NCBI GenBank assembly: GCA_027486415.1 | Contig: JAIXPC010000011.1 | Coordinates: 231,411-295,410 of the forward strand | Direction of reading: 5' to 3' | Length of the DNA stretch: 64,000 nucleotides | Source: Sphingomonadales bacterium | Lineage (GTDB): Bacteria > Pseudomonadota > Alphaproteobacteria > Sphingomonadales > Sphingomonadaceae | Part shown: positions 38,729 through 42,051 of the stretch, one piece after another | How positions within the stretch are numbered: position 1 is the first letter of the stretch | How the letters are laid out: the number at the start of each line of letters is the position of its first letter | Translations under genes and position numbers: made by a program | Notes under the pieces: model-generated | Databases searched by the model: none | The model's input: the letters and a program-made list of their open reading frames with translations, nothing else | Told to the model about the DNA's origin: nothing

Positions 38729-40252
38729 ATGCATCCGTTCCATCACGCCGCGGCCCAGCCCGATACGCCCGCCATCATCATGGCCGGCAGCGGCGAGACA
38801 CTGAGCTATGCCCAGCTCGAGGAACGCTCCAACCGTATCGCCCACCTGCTGCGCGGCCTTGGCCTCACGCGCGGTGACACCATCGCCATCCTGATGCTGA
38901 ACGAGATCGATTTCCTGCCCATCTGCTGGGCGGCGCAGCGATCGGGCCTCGTGTTTGTCGCCATGTCGACCAAGCTCACCGCCGACGAGGCCGGCTATAT
39001 CGCCCAGGATTCCGCCGCCAAAGCGATCTTCTGCTCCCCGGCGCTGGCCGAGGTTGCCGTGGCCGCCACGCCGGGCCTTTCGGCGACGGCCCGGCTGTGC
39101 AGCGGGGCAGGGGCGCCGGGCTGCACCACATTGTCCACCGCCATCGCCGCCCAGCCCGCCACCCGCATCGCCGATGAAAGCACGGGGCGCGACATGCTCT
39201 ATTCCAGCGGCACCACGGGCCGGCCCAAGGGCGTGAAGGGCCCGCTGCCCGAAGGCCCCATCGATCAGGCCGATGCGCTGACCGGGCTGGTCGCCATGCT
39301 CTACAAGTTCGGGCCGGGCATGACCTATCTGTCGCCGGCACCGCTCTATCATGCCGCGCCGCTGCGATATTGCATGGCCGTCCACAAGTTCGGCGGCACC
39401 GTGGTGGTGATGGAGAAGTTCGACCCCGAAACCTATCTGGCGCTGGTGGAAAAGCACCGCATCACCCACAGCCAGCTGGTGCCCACCATGTTCGTGCGGA
39501 TGCTGAAGTTGCCCGACGACGTGCGCGTGGCCCACGACCTGTCCAGCCTGCAGGTGGCCATCCACGCCGCCGCGCCGTGCCCGGTGGATGTGAAGCACGC
39601 CATGATCAGCTGGTGGGGCCCGGTGATCCATGAATATTACAGCGCCACCGAAGGCGCCGGCTTCACCTCCATCACGCCGCAGGAATGGCTGGCGCGGCCG
39701 GGTAGCGTCGGCAAGGCGATCCTGGGCGAAATCCGCGTGCTTGACGATGATGGCGCGCTGCTGGGGCCCAACCAGACCGGCCGCATCTTCTTCCACGGCG
39801 GCGGCAATTTCAGTTACCACAATGATCCGGAAAAGACCGCCAGCGTGATGGGCGAGCATGGCGCCACCTTTGGCGACATCGGCCATGTCGATGAGGACGG
39901 CTATCTGTTCCTCACGGATCGCCAGGCGTTCATGATCATTTCAGGCGGCGTGAACATCTATCCGCAAGAGGCTGAAAACACGCTGATTTCGCATCCCGAA
40001 GTGGCCGATGTCGCGGTGTTCGGGATTCCCGATGACGTGATGGGCGAGGCCGTTCATGCCGTCGTGCAGCCGCGCGACATGGGCCGCGCCGGGCCGGATC
40101 TGGAAGCCGAACTGATCGCCTGGGTTCGCGACCGCCTGAGCCACGTGAAATGCCCCAAGCGCATCGATTTCCGCGCCGAACTGCCGCGCCACGACACCGG
40201 CAAGCTCTACAAGCGGCTGCTGAAGGACGAGTATTGGGCGAAAGCCGGCTGA
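38729..40252 (+). CDS. Acyl-CoA synthetase (AMP-forming)
   Basis: 507 residues, an ANL-superfamily adenylating enzyme. The phosphate-binding loop is YSSGTTGRPKGVKG, followed by YYSATEGAG, GDIGHVDEDGYLFLTDR and the catalytic C-terminal Lys in DTGKLYKR. It should activate a carboxylic acid as an acyl-AMP and transfer it to CoA. The sequence resembles fatty or bile-acid type synthetases, but the chain length cannot be fixed. It is probably co-transcribed with the preceding membrane protein. Confidence 0.88.
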   Translation: MHPFHHAAAQPDTPAIIMAGSGETLSYAQLEERSNRIAHLLRGLGLTRGDTIAILMLNEIDFLPICWAAQRSGLVFVAMSTKLTADEAGYIAQDSAAKAIFCSPALAEVAVAATPGLSATARLCSGAGAPGCTTLSTAIAAQPATRIADESTGRDMLYSSGTTGRPKGVKGPLPEGPIDQADALTGLVAMLYKFGPGMTYLSPAPLYHAAPLRYCMAVHKFGGTVVVMEKFDPETYLALVEKHRITHSQLVPTMFVRMLKLPDDVRVAHDLSSLQVAIHAAAPCPVDVKHAMISWWGPVIHEYYSATEGAGFTSITPQEWLARPGSVGKAILGEIRVLDDDGALLGPNQTGRIFFHGGGNFSYHNDPEKTASVMGEHGATFGDIGHVDEDGYLFLTDRQAFMIISGGVNIYPQEAENTLISHPEVADVAVFGIPDDVMGEAVHAVVQPRDMGRAGPDLEAELIAWVRDRLSHVKCPKRIDFRAELPRHDTGKLYKRLLKDEYWAKAG

Positions 40253-40444
40253 GAACTTGGCTGCAGACGCCGCGTGCGCTGTTCGACGGATAGCACTGCG
40301 GCTTTGATGTGCGCGATCGCGAAACTCTGACCGGCTGTTCGAAAATGTGCCGTTTCTTCTTGTGTCGTTTGCAGTCAATGACCTTCGGCAGTCTTGGAAT
40401 CACGTTTGCAAACTGCCCATGAGCGCGCAAAAAGTGTCGGGTTT

Positions 40445-40461
40445 CCTTACAGTTCGTAAGG
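40445..40461. promoter_or_regulatory. Inverted repeat 1, candidate activator site
   Basis: CCTTAC-AGTTC-GTAAGG is a perfect inverted repeat with six-base arms. It lies roughly 90-107 bases upstream of the start point predicted for the sigma-54 promoter at 40526-40541, the usual distance for an enhancer-binding protein. Confidence 0.5.
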
Positions 40462-40472
40462 CATCCATTGGC

Positions 40473-40490
40473 GACGTTCATCGGAACGTC
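40473..40490. promoter_or_regulatory. Inverted repeat 2, candidate activator site
   Basis: GACGTTC-ATCG-GAACGTC is a perfect inverted repeat with seven-base arms, roughly 62-79 bases upstream of the predicted start point. It differs in sequence from inverted repeat 1, so the two may bind different proteins, or only one may be functional. Confidence 0.5.
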
Positions 40491-40525
40491 TTGGGAATTC
40501 GTTAATAATCCGTCTCCGGGGTGTC

Positions 40526-40541
40526 TGGCACGATCCCTGCA
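40526..40541 (+). promoter_or_regulatory. Sigma-54 (RpoN) type promoter
   Basis: TGGCACGATCCCTGCA matches the -24/-12 consensus TGGCACG-N4-TTGCW except for one base (C for the first T of the -12 element). The invariant GG and GC are exactly 12 bases apart. The predicted transcript would start near 40552, about 27 bases before the PEPxxWA-CTERM gene. RpoN-dependent transcription of PEP-CTERM genes is known in other bacteria, which fits. Confidence 0.7.
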
Positions 40542-40578
40542 CGGCGTCGGCTGCCAACACTGAGGGAGAATGAACGTC

Positions 40579-41112
40579 ATGCGCAGTTTGCTTCTCGTCG
40601 CTGCTGCCGCCGCTGCCATCGCAGTCCCGGCCACGGCGACCAATCTCGTCACCAATGGCAATTTCGCTTCCGGCTTCAGCGGCTGGTCGCAGTTCGGCAA
40701 CACCGGCTTCACTGGCGTGAATTCTGCTGGCTTTGCCTTCTTTGGCCCGATTGGCAGCACGGGCGGCATCACCCAGAACCTCGCCACCACCGCCGGCCAG
40801 GCCTATCTGATCAGCTTCTCGCTCCGCAATCGCGGCGGCCCGACCAACTCGTTCCAGGCTGACTTCGGCAGCCAGCAGCTGAACTCGTTCTCCAACGCCG
40901 CCGCCTTTGGTTTCACCACCTTCAGCTTTACCAAGACGGCCACCGGCAGCAGCACGCCGCTGACTTTCACGATCCGCCACGACCCGTCGTTTTACGACCT
41001 GACCAGCGTCAGCGTGACCGGTGTGCCTGAACCGGCCAACTGGGCCATGCTGATCGCCGGCTTCGGCCTGGTTGGTGCGTTGATGCGCCGTCGCCGCGCT
41101 GTTGCCGCCTGA
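40579..41112 (+). CDS. Secreted protein with PEPxxWA-CTERM sorting tail
   Basis: 177 residues. A signal peptide ends near Ala-Thr-Ala (about residue 20). The mature part starts NLVTNGNFASGFSGWSQFG, like the N-terminal strand of carbohydrate-binding-like jelly-roll domains in many PEP-CTERM proteins. The tail has PEPANWA (150-156), a hydrophobic helix and an Arg cluster. The protein is probably surface-associated and may bind matrix polysaccharide. I prefer the ATG at 40579 because GAGGGAG (40562-40568) is correctly spaced for it; an ATG at 40570 is too close. Confidence 0.88.
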   Translation: MRSLLLVAAAAAAIAVPATATNLVTNGNFASGFSGWSQFGNTGFTGVNSAGFAFFGPIGSTGGITQNLATTAGQAYLISFSLRNRGGPTNSFQADFGSQQLNSFSNAAAFGFTTFSFTKTATGSSTPLTFTIRHDPSFYDLTSVSVTGVPEPANWAMLIAGFGLVGALMRRRRAVAA

Positions 41113-41136
41113 TCGGCAACCACGGTTTCGCATGAG

Positions 41137-41165
41137 GGGCCGTCCCGCAAGGGGCGGCCCTTTTT
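41137..41165 (+). terminator. Rho-independent terminator of the PEP-CTERM gene
   Basis: GGGCCGTCCC (41137-41146) pairs with GGGGCGGCCC (41151-41160) around a GCAA tetraloop with one mismatch, followed by TTTTT. It lies 24 bases after the stop and isolates this gene as a single transcript. Confidence 0.9.
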
Positions 41166-41196
41166 CGTTGTAGCCGTGCCTGCTATCAACGCCGCC

Positions 41197-42051
41197 ATGT
41201 TGCGCCGCCTGTTTCTTGCCTTTGTCCTGCTGCTGTCGGCGCCCGCTCTCGCGGTGCCGGCGATGTGGCAGGTGGGGCAGGGCGCCAGCCGCATCACCAT
41301 CTTTGGCACCATTCACGCCCTGCCCAAGGATCAGGCGTGGATGACGCCGGCCGCACAGCGGGCCTTTGATGGTGCCGGCACGCTGGTGGTGGAAATGGTG
41401 CCGCCCGATGATGCGGCGGCGATGCGGGCGGTCTTCGTCGAACTCGGGATGCTGCCGGCGCCGGTGCCGCTTGTCAGCCGGTTGCCGGCCGATCTCCAGC
41501 CACGCGCTGCCGACGTGCTGAAACAGGCCGGCCTGCCGCCGGGGGCGCTGGACGGCATGGAAACCTGGCTGGCGGCCCTCACGCTGGTGCAGATCGAGGT
41601 GGCGCGCGCCGGCCTCGACCCGTCAGCCGGCGTGGATGTGACGCTGATCGGCCGCGCCCGTTCGGCGGGCAAGGCGCTTGTCGGCCTTGAAACGCCGCGC
41701 GGCCAGCTTGCCCTGTTCGACAGCCTGCCCGAAGCCGATCAGCGGCTGTTGCTGGCGTCCGCCATCGCCGATGCCGGCAAGACGGCCGAGCAGATGCAGG
41801 GCCTTGTGGCGGCGTGGAGCGCCGGCGACGTGGAGCGCATCCTGACCGATTTCGATGATGCCAGCCTGTCGCCCGCACTGAAGGAACGGCTGTTCCGCGC
41901 CCGCAATGCCGCCTGGGCCGATTGGGCGGAACAGGCGCTGAAGCGGCCGGGCCAGCATTTCATGGCAGTCGGCGCCGCCCACATGGCCGGGCCAGACAGC
42001 CTGATCGCCATGCTGAAGGCGCGCGGCATCAGCGTGGAGCGCGTGCAATGA
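41197..42051 (+). CDS. TraB/GumN-family protein, exported
   Basis: 284 residues. A signal peptide (LFLAFVLLLSAPALA) precedes the family motif ITIFGTIHALP. Conserved blocks are VVEMVPPDD, a Glu in GLETPRGQLALFDSLP, and the C-terminal AVGAAHMAGPDSLIAML. These place it in the TraB/PrgY/GumN (Tiki-like) superfamily, putative metalloproteases with paired Gly-x-x-His motifs, but bacterial members lack proven substrates. The ATG at 41197 is preferred over a GTG at 41176 because it starts a compact signal peptide. The next gene overlaps by four bases. Confidence 0.85.
   Translation: MLRRLFLAFVLLLSAPALAVPAMWQVGQGASRITIFGTIHALPKDQAWMTPAAQRAFDGAGTLVVEMVPPDDAAAMRAVFVELGMLPAPVPLVSRLPADLQPRAADVLKQAGLPPGALDGMETWLAALTLVQIEVARAGLDPSAGVDVTLIGRARSAGKALVGLETPRGQLALFDSLPEADQRLLLASAIADAGKTAEQMQGLVAAWSAGDVERILTDFDDASLSPALKERLFRARNAAWADWAEQALKRPGQHFMAVGAAHMAGPDSLIAMLKARGISVERVQ

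Follow-up and report, generated by a model that had tools for sequence, protein, structure and literature searches.

A probable PrsK/PrsR-controlled sigma-54 promoter before PEPxxWA-CTERM genes of a sphingomonad

The PEP-CTERM genes of proteobacteria have been connected to sigma-54 by a pair of upstream motifs. In the parts of the original description drawn on here, a 17-base motif 1 ending in TTTACA precedes a sigma-54 motif (motif 2), with a spacer of 62.8 +/- 10.6 bases (range 32-92), and PrsR was proposed as the reader of motif 1 (Haft 2006; PMC1569441). Section 7 of that paper summarises the spacer by its mean, standard deviation and range, and reports no length classes. According to the portions of a later study cited here, pepA of Aquincola tertiaricarbonis depends on RpoN1, and its -24/-12 start was located by primer extension (PMC9850573). 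The activation of nifLA by NtrC has been described as dependent on the face of the helix (Minchin 1989, as cited in a part of PMC7408454).

In a survey of the sigma-54 regulon, there is no mention of PEP-CTERM, exosortase, PrsR, Sphingo, helical or periodic (PMC12316311). Full-text name searches, outside which most subscription journals lie, returned none for PEPxxWA-CTERM and a single, unrelated paper for XrtV/PEPxxWA, so none on the subject, and no paper on PrsK together with an exosortase in Sphingomonas was found in the searchable literature. Relative to the searchable papers, the XrtV/PEPxxWA setting of PrsK/PrsR is new. PrsR has probably been annotated in sphingomonads before, and the mere presence of prsK and prsR genes is therefore not new.

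The stretch analysed here (64,000 nucleotides, called the window) is part of a 2.71-Mb assembly of 14 contigs that is 97.5% complete, and it holds 2 of the genome's 30 PEPxxWA-CTERM places. The gene under study (40570-41112, plus strand) encodes a protein of 180 amino acids (NF035944, 51.3 bits; cut-off 35) whose PEPxxWA-CTERM sorting domain occupies residues 152-175 (41023-41094, plus strand). Sub-threshold likenesses to DUF642 (18.7 bits; cut-off 27) and to a choice-of-anchor C protein (TIGR04362, 26.5 bits; cut-off 120) were also seen. An acyl-CoA-ligase-like open reading frame, named by eye, ends upstream at 40252 on the plus strand and is separated from the gene by 317 bases. A ribosome-binding site, GAGGGAG, was read by eye at 40562-40568 (plus strand), and a terminator-like hairpin follows the gene at 41134-41163 (plus strand; the scan of the stretch found 3 such hairpins against 1.6 expected).

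The locus compares closely with two of these systems. It resembles the PrsK/PrsR regulon, as far as the cited parts of PMC1569441 describe it, in motif 1, motif 2, the spacer, the long upstream region, the single gene and the position of prsK beside prsR. The tail and exosortase differ, being PEPxxWA-CTERM and XrtV here, whereas the PrsK family TIGR02916 takes its name from the XrtA system. With Aquincola pepA, as presented in the cited portions of PMC9850573, it shares a PEP-CTERM gene preceded by a -24/-12 element and a predicted enhancer and followed by a terminator; that case concerns a different genus and gene and was examined experimentally, whereas the present finding is drawn from sequence evidence.

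Promoter, box and palindromes of the locus

A sigma-54 -24/-12 element, TGGCACGATCCCTGC, lies at 40526-40540 on the plus strand. An earlier sequence-only reading had claimed such a promoter, and the claim was confirmed: the GG/GC distance is right and there is one mismatch to TGGCACN5TTGC, the -12 part being CTGC instead of TTGC. From the -24/-12 geometry, transcription is predicted to start at 40552 (plus strand), about 12 bases past the GC. Taken alone, the element is at chance level, with 8 one-mismatch matches in the window against 8.46 expected; genome-wide, TGGCACN5YTGC gave 47 matches against 19 in the reversed control. It gains its significance from the box that stands in front of it.

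This box, TGTCGGGTTTCCTTACA, is a 17-base candidate PrsR site at 40435-40451 on the plus strand, and it begins ten bases ahead of the range picked out by the sequence-only reading (40445). Its likeness to motif 1 of Haft 2006, judged on the 17-base length and the TTTACA end alone, includes one base off in the last six (CTTACA). The spacer between box and -24/-12 element is 74 bases, inside the published range of 32-92, and the length from box start to the end of the GC is 106 bp, which falls in the distal length class described below. Similar 17-mers precede other PEPxxWA genes. The box is likely a PrsR site by its sequence.

The enhancer role had earlier been given to two inverted repeats. 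Both are perfect, as claimed, and each is the sole match without mismatch in the window. Palindrome 1 (CCTTAC-N5-GTAAGG) lies at 40445-40461, its first seven bases being the 3' end of the PrsR box, and palindrome 2 (GACGTTC-N4-GAACGTC) lies at 40473-40490, in the spacer between box and promoter. Their reading as enhancers did not stand. Among 3000 simulated regions matched in dinucleotide composition to the 317-base region, 15.5% held at least two inverted repeats with arms of at least 6 bases and 17.5% held one with an arm of at least 7, so the palindromes are unremarkable. Palindrome 2 is present in 4 of 251 loci, all four being copies of the present locus, and is absent from the genome's own promoters L004, L005, L020, L021, L025, L029 and L030. 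The palindromes were accordingly rejected as PrsR sites, being at chance level in simulation and not common to other loci. The relevant element is the 17-base box, not the palindrome pair.

The perfect 7-base arms of palindrome 2, placed within the presumed loop, could still suggest that PrsR acts while a second regulator uses this palindrome as an operator that modulates the loop. Its chance-level occurrence and the lack of a match in the other own promoters or elsewhere among the 251 loci make this improbable.

Regulators and shared promoters of the genome

The sequence-only reading had proposed a search of the genome for rpoN, prsK/prsR and exosortase genes, and all of these were found. One match to the sigma-54 DNA-binding domain is present. 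PrsR (TIGR02915, 671.7 bits; cut-off 502.6) and PrsK (TIGR02916, 523.9 bits; cut-off 300; profile 2-679, inside an open frame of 1278 amino acids) are encoded side by side in locus L032, where the two genes overlap by four bases. A PEPxxWA gene about 3 kb from PrsR (C8:199518) is without a box. A single exosortase was found, and it is XrtV: a stretch of 237 amino acids scores 339.3 bits on NF035943 (cut-off 313), and this sole match reaches 139.6 bits on the XrtA family TIGR03109 (cut-off 208), so that no XrtA was found in the 97.5% complete genome.

The box and promoter are shared by further genes. The pattern TGTCGGN8ACA-N50-80-TGGN10GC occurs at seven places in 2.7 Mb (L020, L005, L029, L025, L006, which is the present locus, L004 and L021), all seven before PEPxxWA-CTERM genes, with no match in the reversed control; L020 and L029 are counted with a start codon further downstream than the first automatic choice. 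An eighth place, L030, has one box mismatch (CGTCGG). The pattern was drawn up after these genes had been inspected, so that seven of seven expresses specificity and not an unbiased rate; the family genomes serve as the independent test. A scan of all PEPxxWA-CTERM promoters thus placed the motif pair before 7 of 30 genes plus the eighth, which points to a regulon and overturns the view that a single small surface protein is involved. These scans found no such promoter before the other 22 of 30 genes, and the link between promoter and sorting tail is therefore partial. In the cited parts of PMC1569441 the corresponding figure is 99 of 167, against 7-8 of 30 tail genes here.

The common 17-mer upstream of PEPxxWA genes reads TGTCGGGATTTCTGACA in L005, TGTCGGGATTTTTGACA in L004, TGTCGGGAAATCTGACA in L021 and as given above in the present locus. 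When the best 17-mer in the 400 upstream bases of the 30 genes was scored against the L005 word, L005, L004, L021, L025, L020 and L006 reached 14-17 of 17, L030 reached 12 and L029 reached 11. L023, L017 and L016 also score 12 and miss the pattern. In L025, another box was noticed upstream of the PEPxxWA gene, some 181 bases beyond the first; a repeated motif 1 is mentioned for another species in the cited parts of Haft 2006 (PMC1569441).

These counts bear on the idea that the -24/-12 element is a chance sequence and that an ordinary sigma-70 promoter drives the gene. A one-mismatch site alone is indeed expected about 8 times in the window. A consensus scan of 40200-41250 showed no sigma-70-like site, and box plus site together gave nothing in the reversed control and seven of seven before PEPxxWA genes, which makes this explanation extremely unlikely.

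The region is very probably a PrsK/PrsR-controlled sigma-54 promoter, judging from these sequence features. RNA polymerase with RpoN would form a closed complex on 40526-40540. PrsK would phosphorylate PrsR, which would then occupy the 40435-40451 box, whose centre lies some 109 bp ahead of the predicted start. A short DNA loop would present the AAA+ domain of PrsR to sigma-54 on the proper helical face, and ATP hydrolysis would open the promoter. The gene at 40570 would form a transcription unit by itself, with its end at 41134-41163. Its product would be exported via a signal peptide, with XrtV handling the PEPxxWA-CTERM tail and the protein presumably reaching the surface.

Conservation of this promoter was also sought among homologues of the gene and was not demonstrable for true orthologues. 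The closest homologue in 23 other genus genomes is 53% identical and has a -24/-12-like site (by eye) and no in-phase box, and some more distant homologues carry in-phase boxes. The genus search turned up 30 loci, the window's own among them; of the remaining 29, 11 were scanned, and four of these have a box of at least 9/12 with a -24/-12 site: L201 at 107, L221 at 83, L222 at 84 and L223, which is this genome's own L020 gene, at 85. The script found no box with -24/-12 in the other seven (L198, L199, L200, L202, L203, L204 and L205); a weaker box (8/12) at 83 was seen by eye in L202. In L221 and L202 the box variants TGTAAAATATCTTTACA and TGTAAAATATCTTTAGA replace TGTCGG, the first of them a near-perfect dyad, and for this reason PrsR boxes may be imperfect palindromes.

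The homologue scan of other genomes yielded 16 loci, of which only L081 matches beyond the C-terminal tail. L081, from a Rhodocyclaceae MAG, encodes a PEP-CTERM homologue with 55% identity over residues 25-169, and a transfer between distant groups is possible. Its contig starts 13 bases before a -24/-12-like site, TGGTACGGGGCTTGC (by eye), so that any box would have been lost.

Distribution and spacing in the family

The independent test was made in 199 family genomes, this one included. The loose own-genome pattern matched 188 of 199, with frequent control matches and many coding-looking rows, and because it was unspecific in the family a stricter pattern was adopted (TGTCGGN5YTKACA-N50-80-TGGN9TGC). 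The strict pattern is present in 138 of 199 genomes, with 2 reversed-control matches among the rows listed. In 166 of 199, PrsR exceeds its cut-off. Box and promoter occur in 132 of the 166 genomes with PrsR and in 6 of the 33 without (Fisher p 3e-11, uncorrected for relatedness); genomes were assigned to the two groups via E-values, and the 33 without agree with the tally. Five of the six exceptions (G070, G093, G143, G152 and G193) are drafts of about 90-550 contigs. The sixth, G017, has four box and promoter places and no PrsR over cut-off in 5 contigs at 96% completeness, and is either a real exception or a case of a missing PrsR.

This association is relevant to the alternative that another sigma-54 activator uses the -24/-12 element and that the palindromes are its sites. 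Eight matches to the sigma-54 activator domain are encoded in the genome, of which five are strong. NtrX is over cut-off among these, as is PrsR; a stretch of 164 amino acids matches PspF best, below cut-off; and two lie in a stretch with flagellar-looking proteins (by eye). Any of the PspF-like protein, NtrX and the flagellar-side pair might be considered, and the same -24/-12 word as in the present locus recurs on the opposite strand, some 130 bp ahead of the PspF-like match. The palindromes, however, are at chance level and unshared, whereas the box is common to seven PEPxxWA genes and tracks PrsR over the 199 genomes. Action of another activator is thus quite unlikely, and control by PrsR remains the preferred reading.

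The length from box start to the end of the GC, which a gap of 50-80 permits to run from 82 to 112, is not spread evenly. The 150 rows listed fall at 83-87 (30 rows), 94-98 (114 rows) and 105-109 bp (6 rows), with none at 82, 88-93, 99-104 or 110-112; these lengths were transcribed by hand, and more places were counted than the 150 listed. This genome's own lengths are 83, 84, 85, 105, 106, 106 and 107, with 97 in L030. The length classes stand one helical turn apart. Among periods of 8-14 bp, the best was 11.1 bp with a vector strength of 0.87 (2000 uniform draws gave at most 0.52), from 55 values of this genome and the five genomes with at least five listed places; when all 157 values were taken, it came to 11.6. 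Orthologues among these promoters recur many times within the 150 rows, but genomes with many sites show the same classes internally.

A check with non-redundant places (loci from L097 on, excluding L177-L196; classes 82-87, 94-98 and 105-109) left 9 of 75 out of class. Eight of the nine come from the phylum-wide search and are without TGGCAY at -24; the remaining one, L211 from the genus, has a good -24 element and a length of 103. The in-phase rows L228 and L231 also look like chance matches. When TGGC[AC][CT] was required at -24, 70 of 71 places over all loci were in class (one at 82).

Of the 398 genomes in the phylum-wide sample, 32 had a match, a figure that includes members of the family and probable chance hits. 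AT-rich rows outside the family, picked by eye, have lengths of 97, 94, 84 and 94 (G599), 95 and 105 (G237), 106 and 94 (G479), 94 (G503), 96 (G548), 96 (G590) and 82 (G485).

With the box centred about 89, 100 or 110 bp before the start, the loop would be short and torsional phase should matter. NtrC at nifLA is a sigma-54 activator that needs the right face of the helix, at one promoter according to the cited part of PMC7408454; here natural lengths group into classes across many promoters and genomes. No description of helical length classes was found in the searchable literature.

Two further observations were made on the relatives. In L239 and L240, a motif 1 box stands shortly before the start of a sugar-transferase-like gene (by eye; MIRLFKHYVPNAV), and the allowed range holds no good -24/-12 site. 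The word TAACCA occurs in the spacers of 27 of 87 box and promoter places from other genomes (chance rows included; e.g. L109, L122 and L124), lying 54-56 bases ahead of the GC end in 22 of these and at 44-47 in the other five; it is absent from this genome's eight promoters. It resembles a CtrA half-site (TTAACCAT), and papers on CtrA are among those listed for that word.

A putative hairpin RNA in relatives and the proposed role of PrsR

In many family genomes, box and promoter stand before something other than a PEP-CTERM gene. Of 12 loci inspected, 11 have a convergent glutaredoxin-like gene downstream and 9 a NUDIX-like gene upstream (named by eye). Past the predicted start, most show a hairpin of the form GAGGCGGGGCC...CTGGTCTCCC...GGCCCCGCCTCCCC, which follows shortly after the -12 GC in L100, L102, L107, L122, L124, L128, L129, L135 and others. 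L188 and L195 each hold a tandem pair of hairpin copies, and a terminator-like hairpin (by eye) follows the RNA stretch in some relatives.

The stem was tested on 23 of 30 places, after L112, L133, L137, L140 and L141 (before an open reading frame) and L109 and L131 (without the hairpin) had been dropped. RNAalifold retained only 5 pairs, and an 11-pair stem was supplied by hand, so that the pair counts lean on manual reading. In this stem 86.6% of cells pair against 82.6% in shuffles (0 of 500 as high; n=23), and pairing falls to 56-63% when one strand is slid by one base. Both-sided changes were seen at 5 pairs against 2.0 in shuffles (8 of 500); further pair types were not beyond shuffles (14 against 12.1; 58 of 500).

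An RNA model, R1, was built from the 23 places with the bases beginning ten after the -12 GC. It matches 88 of 199 family genomes at E <= 0.01, of which 82 have PrsR over cut-off; the six without are G032 and G046 (weak matches) and the drafts G070, G093, G152 and G193. R1 has no match in this genome or in three genus mates of the 199-genome sample. A retest of the promoter used 20 stretches with 22 R1 matches, mostly at places outside the listed box rows; L195b belongs to the training set, and one match in L188 is a row listed for the loose pattern. Leaving out L195b, a -24/-12 site scoring 8 or 9 of 9 accompanies a box of 10/12 or better in 18 of 21, at 96-97 bp except for one at 86; L187, L191 and L196 fail. 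A search with the RNA only therefore recovers the promoter, in phase.

The conserved hairpin looks like an undescribed small RNA. As with the Rfam small RNA families, the PrsR-linked stretch of the relatives has the look of an intergenic hairpin RNA, but no Rfam family came up to its gathering score for the hairpin in 11 loci; the sub-threshold matches were P11 (26.7 of 70 bits) and anti-hemB (22.2 of 49.5). In the small-RNA literature, by titles and the starts of abstracts, nothing among the matches listed resembles it. Its C-rich 3' flank is akin to the anti-Shine-Dalgarno motifs of alphaproteobacterial small RNAs.

The proposal that PrsR-type control extends to the PEPxxWA branch thus held for rpoN, prsR, prsK and the shared motif pair, and failed for the palindromes as enhancers and for the single gene. 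On this reading PrsK/PrsR stands above the XrtV/PEPxxWA exosortase branch, and 7-8 genes of a small genome make up a concrete list of candidate targets. It appears somewhat favoured that PrsR is a fixed-face activator, whose box has to lie on one side of the helix, centred some 77, 88 or 98 bp ahead of the -12 end, and that the family uses the promoter module for two outputs, PEPxxWA/XrtV surface proteins and, in many relatives, the hairpin small RNA. The vague notion of an enhancer at a distance in PEP-CTERM promoters then becomes a testable rule: an insertion of 5 bp should lower activity and one of 10-11 bp should restore it. If true, the RNA would be a second, regulatory output of PrsR in the family, and the production of surface proteins or exopolysaccharide would be coupled to post-transcriptional control via a hairpin RNA by a glutaredoxin-like gene.
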